A stretch of 64,000 nt of DNA. It comes from Thiomicrorhabdus chilensis DSM 12352. GTDB taxonomy: Bacteria > Pseudomonadota > Gammaproteobacteria > Thiomicrospirales > Thiomicrospiraceae. A program made the translations under genes and the position numbers. The notes below the pieces were generated by a model that saw only the letters and a list, made by a program, of their open reading frames with translations, searched no databases and was not told the DNA's origin. Shown in pieces: positions 2,105 through 44,486 of the stretch; position 1 is the first letter of the stretch; the number at the start of each line of letters is the position of its first letter. The stretch lies in the NCBI RefSeq assembly GCF_000483485.1, contig NZ_KI519609.1, positions 959,460-1,023,459 on the forward strand, in the 5' to 3' direction.

Positions 2105-4198
2105 ATGGATCTTCAACAACTGTTTGCAAATATAAAGCAAAACTTCACTCGTGGATTGGGTGTGCCTATTGCCGTTTTGGCACTGCTGGGCATGGTTACG
2201 ATTCCACTTCCGCCGATGTTGCTGGATGTGTTTTTTACCTTCAATATTGCCCTGTCTTTGGTTGTATTGATGGTGACTTTATACGCCAAACGTCCATTAG
2301 ATTTCGCTATTTTCCCAACGATTATTTTATTGGCTACTTTATTTAGACTGGCTTTGAACATTGCCTCTACCCGTGTCATCCTGTTGGAAGGCCACCAAGG
2401 CGGAGCCTCTGCAGGCCATGTGATTGAAGCCTTTGGTGAGTTTGTTATTGGCGGGAATTTCGCAGTCGGTTTGGTGGTGTTTGCAATACTGGTGGTCATA
2501 AACTTTGTGGTCATCACCAAAGGGGCGGGGCGAGTTGCCGAGGTCAGTGCTCGTTTCACCTTGGATTCCATGCCCGGTAAGCAGATGGCGATTGATGCCG
2601 ACTTGAATGCGGGCTTGATCACCCAAGAGCAAGCTCAAGAGCGTCGCCGTGAGATCACCTCTGAAGCCGATTTTTACGGTTCTATGGATGGTGCCAGTAA
2701 GTTCGTGCGCGGTGACGCCGTCGCCGGAATCATTATTTTGTTTATTAATCTTATTGGCGGTTTTGCGATTGGTATGGGTCAACACGACCTAGCATTCAGT
2801 GATGCCATTGAGGTCTATACCATCCTGACCTTAGGGGACGGTCTGGTTGCACAGATTCCGGCTTTATTGCTGTCAACGGCGACGGCGATTATTGTGACCC
2901 GAGTGTCAGGAGACCAAGATAATGACATGGGGCAACAGATGCAGATGCAGATGTTTGCCAATCCGCGCTCTTTGGGAATGACGGCTGGTATCGTTGGTGT
3001 TTTAGGGTTGATTCCTGGTATGCCGAATTTAGCATTTTTATCGTTTGCCGGGGTTGCCGGAGCAGGCGCCTACCTGATTCATCGTAAGCAACTGGAGGCT
3101 CCACCGCCTGAAAGCACCGTCACCCCTGAAGAGGAAGCCGAGGTAAAACCTGCGGAATTGAGTTGGGATGATGTTCAGTCATTGGATGTGTTGGGCTTAG
3201 AGGTTGGTTATCGTTTGATTCCAATGGTGGATCAGTCTCAGAATGGACAGCTTTTAGAGCGCGTAAAGGGTGTAAGACGCAAGGTCTCCCAAGAACTAGG
3301 CTTTTTAGTGCCGCCCGTTCATATTCGCGATAATTTGGACTTAAAACCAAACCAATATAGAATTATGTTGATGGGGGTTAACTCCGGTGAAGGAGAGGTT
3401 TTTCCTGACAAGGAGTTGGCGATCAATCCGGGGCAGGTATTTGGTGAGGTCGCCGGAACGCCGACCAAAGACCCAACTTTTGGCCTAGAAGCGGTTTGGA
3501 TTGATGTAAAAGACAGGGAGCAGGCCCAGGCTCTGGGTTATACGGTAGTGGATGCGAGTACCGTCGTGGCTACCCATATCAGTCAGTTGCTGCAAGACTA
3601 TGCTTATGAGTTGCTTGGGCATGAGGAAACGCAACAGCTGTTGGACAAGTTAAAACAGACTTCTCCCAAGTTGGTGGATGAACTGGTTCCGGATCGTCTG
3701 TCTTTGGCGGCAATCGTTAAGGTTCTTCAGAATCTGCTCCAAGATAAAGTAGCCATTCGTGATATGCGCACTATTTTAGAGGCTTTGACCGCTAAGGCGT
3801 CGCTGACACAAGATGCCAATGAATTGACACAGTTTGTTCGCTCTGCACTCGGTAGGTCGATTGTCCAGGATATATTGGGAGCGGAATCAGAGCTTAAAGT
3901 CATTACCCTTGAGCCAGGACTGGAACAGTTGTTGCTACAGGCTACACAAGGTGCGCCGGAAGGCCAGTTGGCCATTGAGCCGGGATTGGCAGAACGTCTG
4001 CACAGCACCCTAAAAGAAGAATCGCAGAAAATGGAAATGAGTGGTCAGTCGGCGGTATTGTTGGTGGCTCCACAGATTCGTGCCCAGTTAGCGCGGCTGT
4101 TTCGCTATAGCCTTCCAACATTGCATATTCTGGCTTATTCTGAAGTGCCAGAAAACCGACAGATCAGTGTGGTGGCCAACGTAGGACAGGGAGGGTAA
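2105..4198 (+). CDS. flhA: FlhA, flagellar export apparatus protein
   Basis: FlhA is the large membrane and cytoplasmic-ring component of the flagellar type III export machine. The product is 697 residues, the usual family size. The N-terminal half is hydrophobic and carries the FHIPEP-family signature region around FRLALNIASTRVILL. The C-terminal half, from about residue 350, is the soluble domain that docks export chaperones. The ATG is preceded by AAAGGCAAG. The stop at 4196-4198 is followed with no gap by flhF. Confidence 0.97.
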   Translation: MDLQQLFANIKQNFTRGLGVPIAVLALLGMVTIPLPPMLLDVFFTFNIALSLVVLMVTLYAKRPLDFAIFPTIILLATLFRLALNIASTRVILLEGHQGGASAGHVIEAFGEFVIGGNFAVGLVVFAILVVINFVVITKGAGRVAEVSARFTLDSMPGKQMAIDADLNAGLITQEQAQERRREITSEADFYGSMDGASKFVRGDAVAGIIILFINLIGGFAIGMGQHDLAFSDAIEVYTILTLGDGLVAQIPALLLSTATAIIVTRVSGDQDNDMGQQMQMQMFANPRSLGMTAGIVGVLGLIPGMPNLAFLSFAGVAGAGAYLIHRKQLEAPPPESTVTPEEEAEVKPAELSWDDVQSLDVLGLEVGYRLIPMVDQSQNGQLLERVKGVRRKVSQELGFLVPPVHIRDNLDLKPNQYRIMLMGVNSGEGEVFPDKELAINPGQVFGEVAGTPTKDPTFGLEAVWIDVKDREQAQALGYTVVDASTVVATHISQLLQDYAYELLGHEETQQLLDKLKQTSPKLVDELVPDRLSLAAIVKVLQNLLQDKVAIRDMRTILEALTAKASLTQDANELTQFVRSALGRSIVQDILGAESELKVITLEPGLEQLLLQATQGAPEGQLAIEPGLAERLHSTLKEESQKMEMSGQSAVLLVAPQIRAQLARLFRYSLPTLHILAYSEVPENRQISVVANVGQGG

Positions 4199-25528: not shown

Positions 25529-26830
<1,302 letters not shown>

Positions 26831-26880
26831 TCCTTCTTTGCAAATAGCCGCAAATTTAAAAGCATTTTCTGCTGAGCATA

Positions 26881-26917
26881 AAAACCAGGCCTGCTCATTT
26901 TCGGCAGGCCTGGTTTT
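26881..26917. terminator. Terminator made of an inverted pair of CAGGCCTG repeats
   Basis: Perfect 14-bp arms (AAAACCAGGCCTGC at 26881-26894, and 26904-26917) with a 9-nt loop and a following T run. Both arms are copies of the dispersed repeat in opposite orientation (cores 26886 and 26905). It sits between serS and the convergent alkyltransferase gene and can serve both. Confidence 0.92.
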
Positions 26918-26952
26918 TTTATGTCTTGAGGTAAAGCAGGCGTAAACACAGT

Positions 26953-27291
26953 TTACTGCTTAAAGTCATATAACCGCGTTTCAAACTCCACCACCTTATT
27001 ATTCACTACCTTCACACCTTCCTGTTCCAAAAGTTCGATTTTGGTCGCGCTTCCCAACGCATACTGACCCACTTCGCCATTACTTTTCACCACTCGGTGG
27101 CAGGGCACCTTTATTAAATTCGGGTTGTGCGCCATCGCATTGCCCACCGCTCGGTATGCCTTGCTATTCAAAACCTCTGCAATGGCTTTGTAGGTAGTAA
27201 CTCGCCCCTTGGGAATACGCTTCAGCAACGCGTAACAACATTGGTTAAAGTCGCAAATCTGTGAATCTGATGGGTCAGTGGATTGGGTCAT
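26953..27291 (-). CDS. Short O6-alkylguanine-DNA alkyltransferase-family protein
   Basis: This 112-residue protein consists only of the C-terminal DNA-binding/alkyl-transfer domain: IPKGRVTTYKAIAEVL, YRAVGNAMAHNPN and VPCHRVVKSNGEVG. The acceptor cysteine in PCHRV is present. Short proteins of this size are often alkyltransferase-like (ATL) proteins in which Cys is replaced by Trp, so the retained Cys suggests a working suicide repair enzyme. There is no N-terminal domain. A dispersed repeat lies just upstream of the start. Confidence 0.85.
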   Translation of the reverse strand: MTQSTDPSDSQICDFNQCCYALLKRIPKGRVTTYKAIAEVLNSKAYRAVGNAMAHNPNLIKVPCHRVVKSNGEVGQYALGSATKIELLEQEGVKVVNNKVVEFETRLYDFKQ

Positions 27292-27300
27292 AGAAATGAA

Positions 27301-27308
27301 CAGGCCTG
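27301..27308 (+). repeat. CAGGCCTG dispersed repeat copy, upstream of the alkyltransferase gene
   Basis: AAATGAACAGGCCTGGTTAA, 10 nt from the ATG of the minus-strand gene. Confidence 0.8.
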
Positions 27309-42439: not shown

Positions 42440-43966
42440 ATGCCTGAAGAGATATTACGCCGTGTACTGACGGCACCGGTTTACGATGTGGCCTCTGAAA
42501 CTCCGTTGGAAGTCGCTCCTTTGTTGAGTAAGCGCTTGCAAAATAAAGTGTGGCTAAAACGGGAAGACTTGCAACCGGTGTTTTCGTTTAAGTTGCGGGG
42601 TGCTTATAACTGCATGGTGCATTTGACTGATGAGCAGAAAAAAGCGGGAGTCATCGCGGCTTCGGCAGGCAACCATGCACAAGGCGTTGCATTGTCGGCG
42701 AGCAAAATGGGCATTGATGCGAAAATTGTCATGCCTCAAACCACTCCTCCGATCAAAGTTAACGCCGTTAGAAACTTGGGCGGCAATGTGATTTTGCACG
42801 GCGATACTTATGATGAAGCCTCCAAGTTCGCCAAACAGTTGGTGGCCTCTGAACAACGCACCTATATTCATCCTTATGACGACTTGGATGTTATTGCCGG
42901 GCAGGGCACCATCGCGCTGGAAATGCTCAGACAACATAGCGGTGCGTTTGATGTGATATTTGTTTGTGTCGGCGGCGGCGGCTTGATCTCCGGCATCGCT
43001 TCGGTGATCAAGCAGGTGTCACCCAAAACACGTATTATCGGAGTCGAGCCCGAGGATGCGGCCAGTATGACCGAAGCCTTGAAAGCGGGCGAGCGTATTG
43101 TACTCGATCAGGTTGGCATTTTTGCCGACGGCGTGGCCGTGGCGCAGGTTGGGGAGATACCGTACCGAATCGCACAAACCTGTGTGGACGAAATGATTAC
43201 CGTTAAAACCGATGAGATTTGCGCCGCGGTGAAAGACATTTTTGAGGATACGCGTGCAATCGCTGAACCGGCTGGTGCTTTGGCCGTGGCGGGCATGAAG
43301 AAATTTGTTGAACAGTATTCGGTTTCCGGTTTGGAAATGGCGGCGATTGTCAGTGGTGCGAACATGAATTTTGACCGTTTGCGTCATATTTCGGAACGTA
43401 CTGAGCTGGGTGAAAAACGTGAAGCCATTTTTGCCGTCACCATTGATGAAGAACCGGGTAGTTTCAAGCGTTTCTGTGAGTTGTTGGGCGGGCGTCGAGC
43501 GATTACCGAGTTCAATTACCGATATGCGGATTCCAGTCGGGCAGTGGTGTTTGTTGGTGTTCGAACCGAAGGCGGAAAGCCGGAACGTGAAGCGATTTTG
43601 AGCGAATTGGCCAAACAGGGTTACGCGGTGGAAGACATGACCGATAACGAAATGGCCAAGCTGCATTTGCGTTATTTGGTGGGTGGGCATGCCAAAGGCA
43701 TCGCTAATGAACTTTTGTATCGTTTTGAGTTTCCGGAAAGACCTGGCGCGCTCCTACAGTTTTTGACGCAGATGAGCGAGGAGTGGAATATCAGCCTGTT
43801 CCATTACCGTAATCATGGTGCCGCTTACGGCCGGGTTTTGGTCGGGGTTCAGGTGCCGCCGGAGCAAAACCAGGCGTTTGAATGTTATTTGCAGAACTTG
43901 GGATACACTTATGTGAATGAACAGGAGAACCCGGGGTATCAACTGTTCTTGAAGCCGACGGCTTAA
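42440..43966 (+). CDS. ilvA: Threonine ammonia-lyase, biosynthetic
   Basis: This 508-residue PLP enzyme converts threonine to 2-oxobutanoate, the first step of isoleucine synthesis. It has the PLP-lysine segment SFKLRGAYN, SAGNHAQGVA and the glycine loop VGGGGLISGI. Two C-terminal ACT-like regulatory repeats (FAVTIDEEPGSFKRFCELL and YRFEFPERPGALLQFLTQM) mark the isoleucine-inhibited biosynthetic form. The GGAAAAGGA before the ATG is strong. It ends in a hairpin made of repeats at 44005. Confidence 0.97.
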   Translation: MPEEILRRVLTAPVYDVASETPLEVAPLLSKRLQNKVWLKREDLQPVFSFKLRGAYNCMVHLTDEQKKAGVIAASAGNHAQGVALSASKMGIDAKIVMPQTTPPIKVNAVRNLGGNVILHGDTYDEASKFAKQLVASEQRTYIHPYDDLDVIAGQGTIALEMLRQHSGAFDVIFVCVGGGGLISGIASVIKQVSPKTRIIGVEPEDAASMTEALKAGERIVLDQVGIFADGVAVAQVGEIPYRIAQTCVDEMITVKTDEICAAVKDIFEDTRAIAEPAGALAVAGMKKFVEQYSVSGLEMAAIVSGANMNFDRLRHISERTELGEKREAIFAVTIDEEPGSFKRFCELLGGRRAITEFNYRYADSSRAVVFVGVRTEGGKPEREAILSELAKQGYAVEDMTDNEMAKLHLRYLVGGHAKGIANELLYRFEFPERPGALLQFLTQMSEEWNISLFHYRNHGAAYGRVLVGVQVPPEQNQAFECYLQNLGYTYVNEQENPGYQLFLKPTA

Positions 43967-44004: not shown

Positions 44005-44055
44005 AAAACCGGCAGGCCTGGTGAACACTATATGCACACCAGGCCTGTCGGTTTT
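44005..44055. terminator. Terminator made of a second inverted pair of CAGGCCTG repeats
   Basis: Nineteen-base arms (44005-44023 and 44037-44055) pair fully except for one G-T, with a 13-nt loop. Each arm holds a full repeat (cores 44013 and 44040) in opposite orientation. It lies between convergent ilvA and the gene at 44073, flanked by A and T tracts. Confidence 0.9.
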
Positions 44056-44072: not shown

Positions 44073-44486
44073 TTATTTGAACTCGTCGCAGATATGACCC
44101 TGAGGTTGGCCGTTTTCATCGGTCTTTAAGGTTGGAAAGGACGGCATAAAGTCGTTGCTCTGCATTTCCTGAGTGCACTTCTGGATCTGTTGGAAGGCTT
44201 TGGATTGATTGATCTGTTTTCCGAATTCCACCGCTTTGCTTTGCGCCTCGTCACGTTTTCCGGCCTGACAAAGCGCTTTTAATTCGGTTTCCAGTTGATT
44301 GATTTGAACTTCATAAGCGCGCAGTTCATTTTCATCCACTTGCTGCAGGCACTGTTGCATTTTCTGCATCTGCATCATCATCTGCTGCATGCCCTGATTG
44401 TTCATAGAGGACATATTCTCCGCATGAGCGGGCATCAGGGTTGCGGAAAGTGTTGTAAAAATCAGCGTTTTTAATAGGTTAGACAT
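44073..44486 (-). CDS. Secreted Met/Gln-rich coiled-coil protein, unknown function
   Basis: This 137-residue protein has a signal peptide (LIFTTLSATLMPAHA), a strikingly Met/Gln-rich start of the mature chain (MNNQGMQQMMMQMQKMQQC), then a helical region with three further cysteines (ALCQAG, IQKCTQ, HICDEF). I do not recognise a family. Methionine-rich periplasmic segments often bind Cu(I) or Ag(I), and the copper locus is 2 kb away, but the link is only suggestive. The ATG is preceded by GGAGAAATC. Confidence 0.6.
   Translation of the reverse strand: MSNLLKTLIFTTLSATLMPAHAENMSSMNNQGMQQMMMQMQKMQQCLQQVDENELRAYEVQINQLETELKALCQAGKRDEAQSKAVEFGKQINQSKAFQQIQKCTQEMQSNDFMPSFPTLKTDENGQPQGHICDEFK

Follow-up and report, generated by a model that had tools for sequence, protein, structure and literature searches.

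A putative two-way terminator behind serS of Thiomicrorhabdus chilensis is built from a genome-wide repeat that is probably a DNA uptake sequence

What is the role of the inverted repeat that separates serS from the gene converging on it in Thiomicrorhabdus chilensis DSM 12352, and what is the repeated word from which it is made? Sequence-specific uptake words have been described for the Neisseriaceae and Pasteurellaceae in the sources cited below, and the first-pass annotation of this DNA had regarded the structure as a terminator formed by two facing repeat copies, the pair being taken to strengthen a reading of the repeat as an uptake sequence. We analyzed the locus in a window of 64,000 nucleotides (positions 959460-1023459 of its contig; the genome measures 2.44 Mb), and followed the repeat through the genome and its relatives. 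The earlier finding is right, and was understated. Our overall explanation, to which we assign a probability of about 0.6, is that the structure is a repeat-built and probably two-way terminator, and that the repeat is most likely the DNA uptake sequence of the family.

The region 26880-26918 downstream of serS reads AAAAACCAGGCCTGC-TCATTTTCG-GCAGGCCTGGTTTTT, with T continuing to 26920. It forms a perfect 15-bp hairpin at a distance of 49 nt from the serS stop codon, with arms that are 100% complementary and 9 nt apart, and with a stem composed of two facing repeat copies, ACCAGGCCTGC/GCAGGCCTGGT (Table 1). The inverted pair followed by T that had been described earlier was therefore confirmed (perfect arms, seven T). 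The 14-bp arms given for it (26881-26894 and 26904-26917) are indeed perfect and lie inside the full arms of 15 nt, and the wording that the stem is exactly two repeat copies was slightly generous, as 11 nt of each arm belong to the repeat and the other 4 nt to the A-run or the T-run. Folded as RNA, the hairpin has a predicted free energy of -29.0 kcal/mol compared to a mean of -9.5 for shuffled sequences (z -8.0), and the opposite strand, which also ends in a T tail, reaches -27.4 kcal/mol (z -7.6). A stable hairpin with a T-tail behind a gene is characteristic of intrinsic (Rho-independent) terminators. Judged by sequence and predicted fold, the serS hairpin is very probably such a terminator, one at which RNA polymerase would stop, its stem being supplied by two nearby copies of a genome-wide repeat; this supports the earlier proposal of a terminator made from a facing pair. 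Since the hairpin is T-ended on both strands and the next gene is convergent, it could serve both genes, and the terminator is probably two-way. The methyltransferase-domain gene has cores on either side, as a single further one is present at 27301-27308, a short way upstream of its start (27291).

Table 1. Features at the serS 3' end and at the second core pair of the window (window coordinates).
Feature	Position	Strand	Basis or remark
serS, seryl-tRNA synthetase	25544-26830	+	PF00587, PF02403
5' arm of putative serS terminator hairpin, AAAAACCAGGCCTGC	26880-26894	+	sequence, fold
A-run, a 5-T tail on the other strand	26880-26884	-	
Repeat copy 1, GCAGGCCTGGT on - strand (ACCAGGCCTGC on +)	26884-26894	-	core CAGGCCTG at 26886-26893
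Flank CTCATTTT of copy 1	26894-26901	+	fits extended-motif tract (NYNRTTTT); last 7 nt are loop
9-nt loop TCATTTTCG separating the perfect arms	26895-26903	+	
3' arm of hairpin, GCAGGCCTGGTTTTT	26904-26918	+	sequence, fold
Repeat copy 2, GCAGGCCTGGT	26904-26914	+	core CAGGCCTG at 26905-26912
T-run, 7 T	26914-26920	+	
Convergent gene, 6-O-methylguanine DNA methyltransferase DNA-binding domain protein	26953-27291	-	PF01035
Gene left of second pair, threonine dehydratase-domain	42440-43966	+	PF00291/PF00585
Second core pair, cores separated by 19 nt	44013-44047		terminator-like on both strands
Convergent gene right of second pair	44073-44435	-	no Pfam match

The word itself stands out in the window and in the genome. 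No other 11-mer of the window scored as high as GCAGGCCTGGT (11 copies against 0.06 expected), which occurs 209 times in the genome, compared to one copy of the reversed word, with about equal use of the two strands (111/98; control 1 and 0). Its palindromic core CAGGCCTG has 900 copies genome-wide versus 26 for the reversed word. Both this great excess of a short word and the near-equal use of the strands are expected of an uptake sequence. In an unbiased sample of 464 kb, consisting of the window and 20 stretches of 20 kb, we counted 193 cores where 9.6 were expected (two-strand figures halved), and all 20 stretches contained cores (2 to 11 each). The core-poorest 20-kb stretches were L117 (2 cores) and L121 (4 cores); the idea that they are mobile islands was rejected, as L117 holds mainly a respiratory-complex operon and L121 a ribosomal-protein operon (genes recognised from their translations). 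A hand count of plus-strand 11-mers alone was uneven along contig C1, 69 of the 111 lying below 1.22 Mb.

When single-mismatch variants were compared in the 464-kb sample, strong enrichment was limited to the exact core. The variants were at most weakly enriched, chiefly at the outermost positions 1 and 8, with the largest excess for AAGGCCTG/CAGGCCTT (2.2) followed by GAGGCCTG/CAGGCCTC (1.5), and inner variants did not exceed expectation except for CAGTCCTG/CAGGACTG (1.6). A palindromic GC-rich octamer that is present in high number and has its mismatches biased to the ends resembles the cyanobacterial HIP1, for which comparable features are reported in passages of PMC4390886. This brings in the main rival explanation, in which DNA methylation and repair create and maintain the repeat as a highly iterated palindrome, with the terminators as a by-product; we consider it unlikely on the evidence of flanks, dialects and methylases given below.

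The placement of the cores is far from even. Genes were predicted for the analyses of placement, stop distance, A-tract, terminators and pairs with our own codon-usage caller at a lower threshold of 10, and because this caller misses genes the genic core counts are probably too low. Within the sample, convergent intergenic DNA holds 37 of the 193 cores where 5.2 were expected, and tandem intergenic DNA holds 52 (27.8 expected; 36 of these nearer the stop); 9 lie in divergent intergenic DNA (8.1 expected) and 93 in predicted genes (150 expected), while a further 2 fall in no class. Among 341 gene ends, 68 had a terminator-like hairpin within 150 nt, where some hairpins between convergent genes, that of serS included, were counted once per side; 13 of the 68 contained a core, and 10 contained two. 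It is very unlikely that the serS structure is just an ordinary terminator for which the repeat word does nothing more than provide a favoured stem: although other stems can sit at the serS end, as do the ordinary hairpins of several motif-poor relatives, nearly half of the sampled cores are inside predicted genes, where they also carry the A-tract described below, and most terminator-like hairpins have no core.

Further inverted pairs, on whose existence the first-pass annotation had made its reading depend, were found throughout the genome: two cores lie within 30 nt of each other at 35 places (control 0; about 10 expected by flat random placement of 900 copies, calculated by hand). A predicted stop codon lies no more than 100 nt upstream of 34 of these places, and 17 of the 35 are located between convergent genes. 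The serS hairpin is thus one of a genome-wide class of repeat-pair structures. Re-dealing the sampled sites within region classes gave 4.7 pairs compared to the 11 observed, a number that was reached in 8 of 2000 rounds. As the reverse complement of CAGGCCTG is CAGGCCTG again, two cores face each other wherever they occur together, and information on the arrangement can come only from the flanking letters. The outer flanks of the pairs are complementary at 5.29 of 8 positions, versus 4.08 with shuffled partners (maximum 4.80 in 2000), a pattern expected under selection for a stem, and 12 of the 35 pairs lack an uninterrupted outer extension of the stem. At the tract position, three or more of the 4 letters are A (or T) on both outer flanks in 23 of the 35 pairs and on at least one flank in 30. 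The cores are separated by 11 nt in eight pairs, that of serS among them, and a CATTTT-like tract occupies the loop at serS and in some other pairs of this spacing. The intergenic excess and the facing pairs at terminators are again features expected of uptake sequences.

We then defined the wider motif from 192 of the 193 sampled sites, one site near the end of a stretch being missing. With both strands averaged, these sites have A at positions -8 to -5, a pyrimidine at -4, a purine at -2 and a sharp edge at -9, which places the A-rich columns about plus/minus 10.5 bp from the motif centre. In cross-validation, a motif model with free orientation performed better than a symmetric one (-15243 versus -15322). 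The A fraction at -8 to -5 was 0.45 in the 93 genic copies compared to 0.26 nearby (P 2e-22), and 0.64 versus 0.29 in the 78 unpaired intergenic copies. The tract is thus part of the word, and more than the tail of a terminator. A possible second A-tract at -23 to -20 was visible in the fitted model, but it was weak when sites were oriented by the near flank alone (A 0.32 versus 0.28, P 0.0045; 15 ties of the 192 dropped). The sharp, footprint-like motif with its A-rich columns could also be the site of an intracellular DNA-binding protein with a role in nucleoid organisation, segregation or recombination. This we regard as improbable, since the 11-mer is about equally frequent on the strands, the occurrence of cores in every sampled stretch speaks against confinement to a single region, and the dialects differ between close relatives.

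These dialects became apparent in 32 genomes of the genus, in which core counts are bimodal (236 to 1173 in 15 genomes, 3 to 74 in 17). In sampled sequence, ACCAGGCCTG/CCAGGCCTGG are the preferred words of G001, G002, G005, G007, G011, G012 and G029, whereas AGCAGGCCTG is preferred in G021, AACAGGCCTG in G027 and ACCGGCCGGT in G006. G003 uses a non-palindromic word, ACAGGCCGGG (the CAGGCCGGG word), with an A-tract of its own; G003 and G006 are thus low in CAGGCCTG yet have other words. G016 has 62 copies of CAGGCCTG compared to 262 matches to the degenerate pattern and probably represents another dialect. Other words were sought in samples of 40 kb each from G004, G008, G009, G010, G022, G030 and G031 and of 20 kb each from G020 and G025; G016-G019, G023 and G024 lay outside this sampling, and the designation 'no word' is provisional. 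The degenerate word extends to other genera of the family (g3, 7 of 11 genomes; g6, 9 of 9; g7, 1 of 1), was not clearly present in g2 (4 genomes), g4 (1) and g5 (4), and at 99 pooled sites from other genera the A-rich flank was found again. Dialects across a family are a further property of uptake sequences. A SerS tree of 30 rows requires 4 changes to account for the motif-poor state, and well-supported branches force 2 of these, which implies that the state was gained or lost on more than one occasion. Close pairs are near random expectation in some relatives, for example G001 (20 versus about 15, by hand, 1106 copies). Three cores with similar surroundings lie 35 bp apart at G005:C1:979086-979163, forming a core-containing short tandem repeat. 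Within the first 20 kb, AGACCTAGCC occurs about 28 times in L260 (G038, a genome without the motif) and GTGGGAACGA about 8 times in L245 (G054), perhaps as arrays such as CRISPR.

The end of serS offers a natural experiment on how terminators respond to the dialect, as one and the same gene end can be compared in 30 of the 32 genus genomes (G015, with a partial serS hit and no locus, and G016, without a true serS hit, were left out). CMGGCCKG is present at most 120 nt from the serS stop in 11 of the 16 motif-bearing genomes and in none of the 14 others (P 9e-5). G027 has a CAGGCCTG pair, G006 has two copies of its own word ACCGGCCGGT, and in G003 the end reads ACCCGGCCTG ... CAGGCCGGGT, a pair of its own word that was folded. 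G002, G007 and G014 carry a single extended palindrome, GCGACCAGGCCTGGTCGC, and the G002 copy, when folded, closes on itself around a GGCC loop. Because the core is palindromic, a single extended copy is foldable, and by prediction the serS ends of G002, G007, G014 and G011 can each form a terminator-like hairpin of this type. In five of the 16 motif-bearing genomes the 120 nt behind the serS stop contain no motif; G012 and G029 show none there, and three of the five, the motif-rich G013, G021 and G028, have ordinary hairpins by eye, as do the motif-poor G008, G009, G010, G022 and G031. Where the serS end uses the word, its stem follows the genome's own word, and a co-opted terminator that tracks the dialect is well supported.

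With respect to HIP1-like iteration, several relatives do have palindromic extensions of the core (CCAGGCCTGG), and low counts occur sporadically together with other palindromic words. A C5-cytosine methylase (PF00145) scored over the cut-off in 7 of the 15 CAGGCCTG-rich genomes, but there is none in the genome studied here or in G002, G003, G005, G006 and G026-G029, and the family is also represented in several motif-poor genomes. A PF01555 methylase is found in 4 of the 15 CAGGCCTG-rich genomes, this one not included. Both families, the two that our methylase searches covered, were therefore rejected as the maker of the word in this genome. Moreover, neither the A-tract at -8 to -5 nor the non-palindromic word of G003 suits a short methylase site.

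The reading of the repeat as a DNA uptake sequence is plausible and, as the best fit, somewhat favoured: it accommodates the copy number, the use of both strands, the dialects with their gain or loss, the terminators, and the combination of a GC core with an AT-tract. The observations that stand against it are the palindromic core, the HIP1-like mismatch pattern and the absence of a ComP_DUS match over the cut-off. Known uptake sequences are non-palindromic according to passages of PMC1939737 and PMC12616744, a property that CAGGCCTG does not share, although this is partly countered by the better fit of an asymmetric model to the extended motif and by the word of G003. Taken alone, two facing copies of a palindromic core carry little weight as evidence. 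The earlier conclusion from the pair thus keeps its plausibility as regards uptake and loses force as an argument from pairing; a core of this kind can pair with another copy whichever way the two are oriented, and better evidence comes from the stem changing with the dialect and from the A-tract of genic copies.

In the mechanism we propose for the uptake reading, a protein of the uptake machinery would bind the GC core (GGCC centre, CAGGCCTG here), with the A-tract, about one helical turn from the core centre, as part of the bound site. Recombination of taken-up DNA from kin would multiply the copies and give rise to lineage-specific dialects, and where two copies came to lie close behind a gene, selection may have preserved the hairpin and lengthened it for use as a terminator. 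The repeat working in uptake is what we infer from these patterns. ComEC was found in 28 of the 32 genus genomes, including this one and motif-poor genomes, and so fails to separate motif-rich from motif-poor genomes. The comEC gene (L139 83-2656) itself contains two cores, at 548 and 1802, and the next open frame one more, at 3289. ComP_DUS was rejected as the receptor, as it had no match over the cut-off in the 32 genomes and one below it, in G031. A regular-expression scan of less than a quarter of the genome, too narrow to establish absence, returned no pilin-like N-termini.

The literature matches listed, mostly outside subscription journals, contained no uptake word for Thiomicrospira, Thiomicrorhabdus or Hydrogenovibrio and nothing relevant on CAGGCCTG and its extensions. 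There is in our estimate an even chance that Thiomicrorhabdus and neighbouring genera represent a further independent uptake-sequence family, with a palindromic GGCC-centred core, A-tracts readable on either side, dialects and dialect-tracking stems. If true, this would provide a separate family, one that has dialects, a palindromic core and a history of repeated gain or loss, on which to test the origins of such words, a possible driving role of a receptor pilin, and the reasons for their recurrence in terminators.

Uptake discrimination by a palindromic site is known from Campylobacter, which has a methylated uptake site, RAATTY, and its methylase; as commonly described, that site is palindromic like the repeat reported here but depends on methylation. 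Recognition of methylated DNA is essential in Campylobacter uptake according to a passage of PMC8468864. The cyanobacterial HIP1 (GCGATCGC) and the present repeat share a palindromic GC-rich octamer, alternate words and end-biased mismatches, as far as described in passages of PMC4390886, in which the words 'terminat' and 'intergenic' are absent; the repeat differs in its A-tract flank, in one non-palindromic dialect and in the lack of a PF00145 or PF01555 methylase in this genome. With the uptake signal sequence (USS) of the Pasteurellaceae (AAGTGCGGT with AT-tracts, predicted to be rigid and slightly bent for the Haemophilus type in a section of PMC7811141), it has in common a GC core with an adjoining AT-tract, whereas the word is unrelated, the core is palindromic, the A-tract may lie on either or both sides and the second tract is weak. 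Its share of terminator hairpins (13/68) is near the 16-29% given for Pasteurellaceae in part of PMC1852404, where the method differs, and contrasts with about 55% for the Neisseriaceae DUS in the same source. The DUS (GCCGTCTGAA) is an unrelated word, and the core here is palindromic and goes without a ComP_DUS over the cut-off; still, as outlined in passages of PMC3630211 and PMC1852404, the two are alike in their very many copies, their family-wide dialects and their terminators made of inverted pairs.
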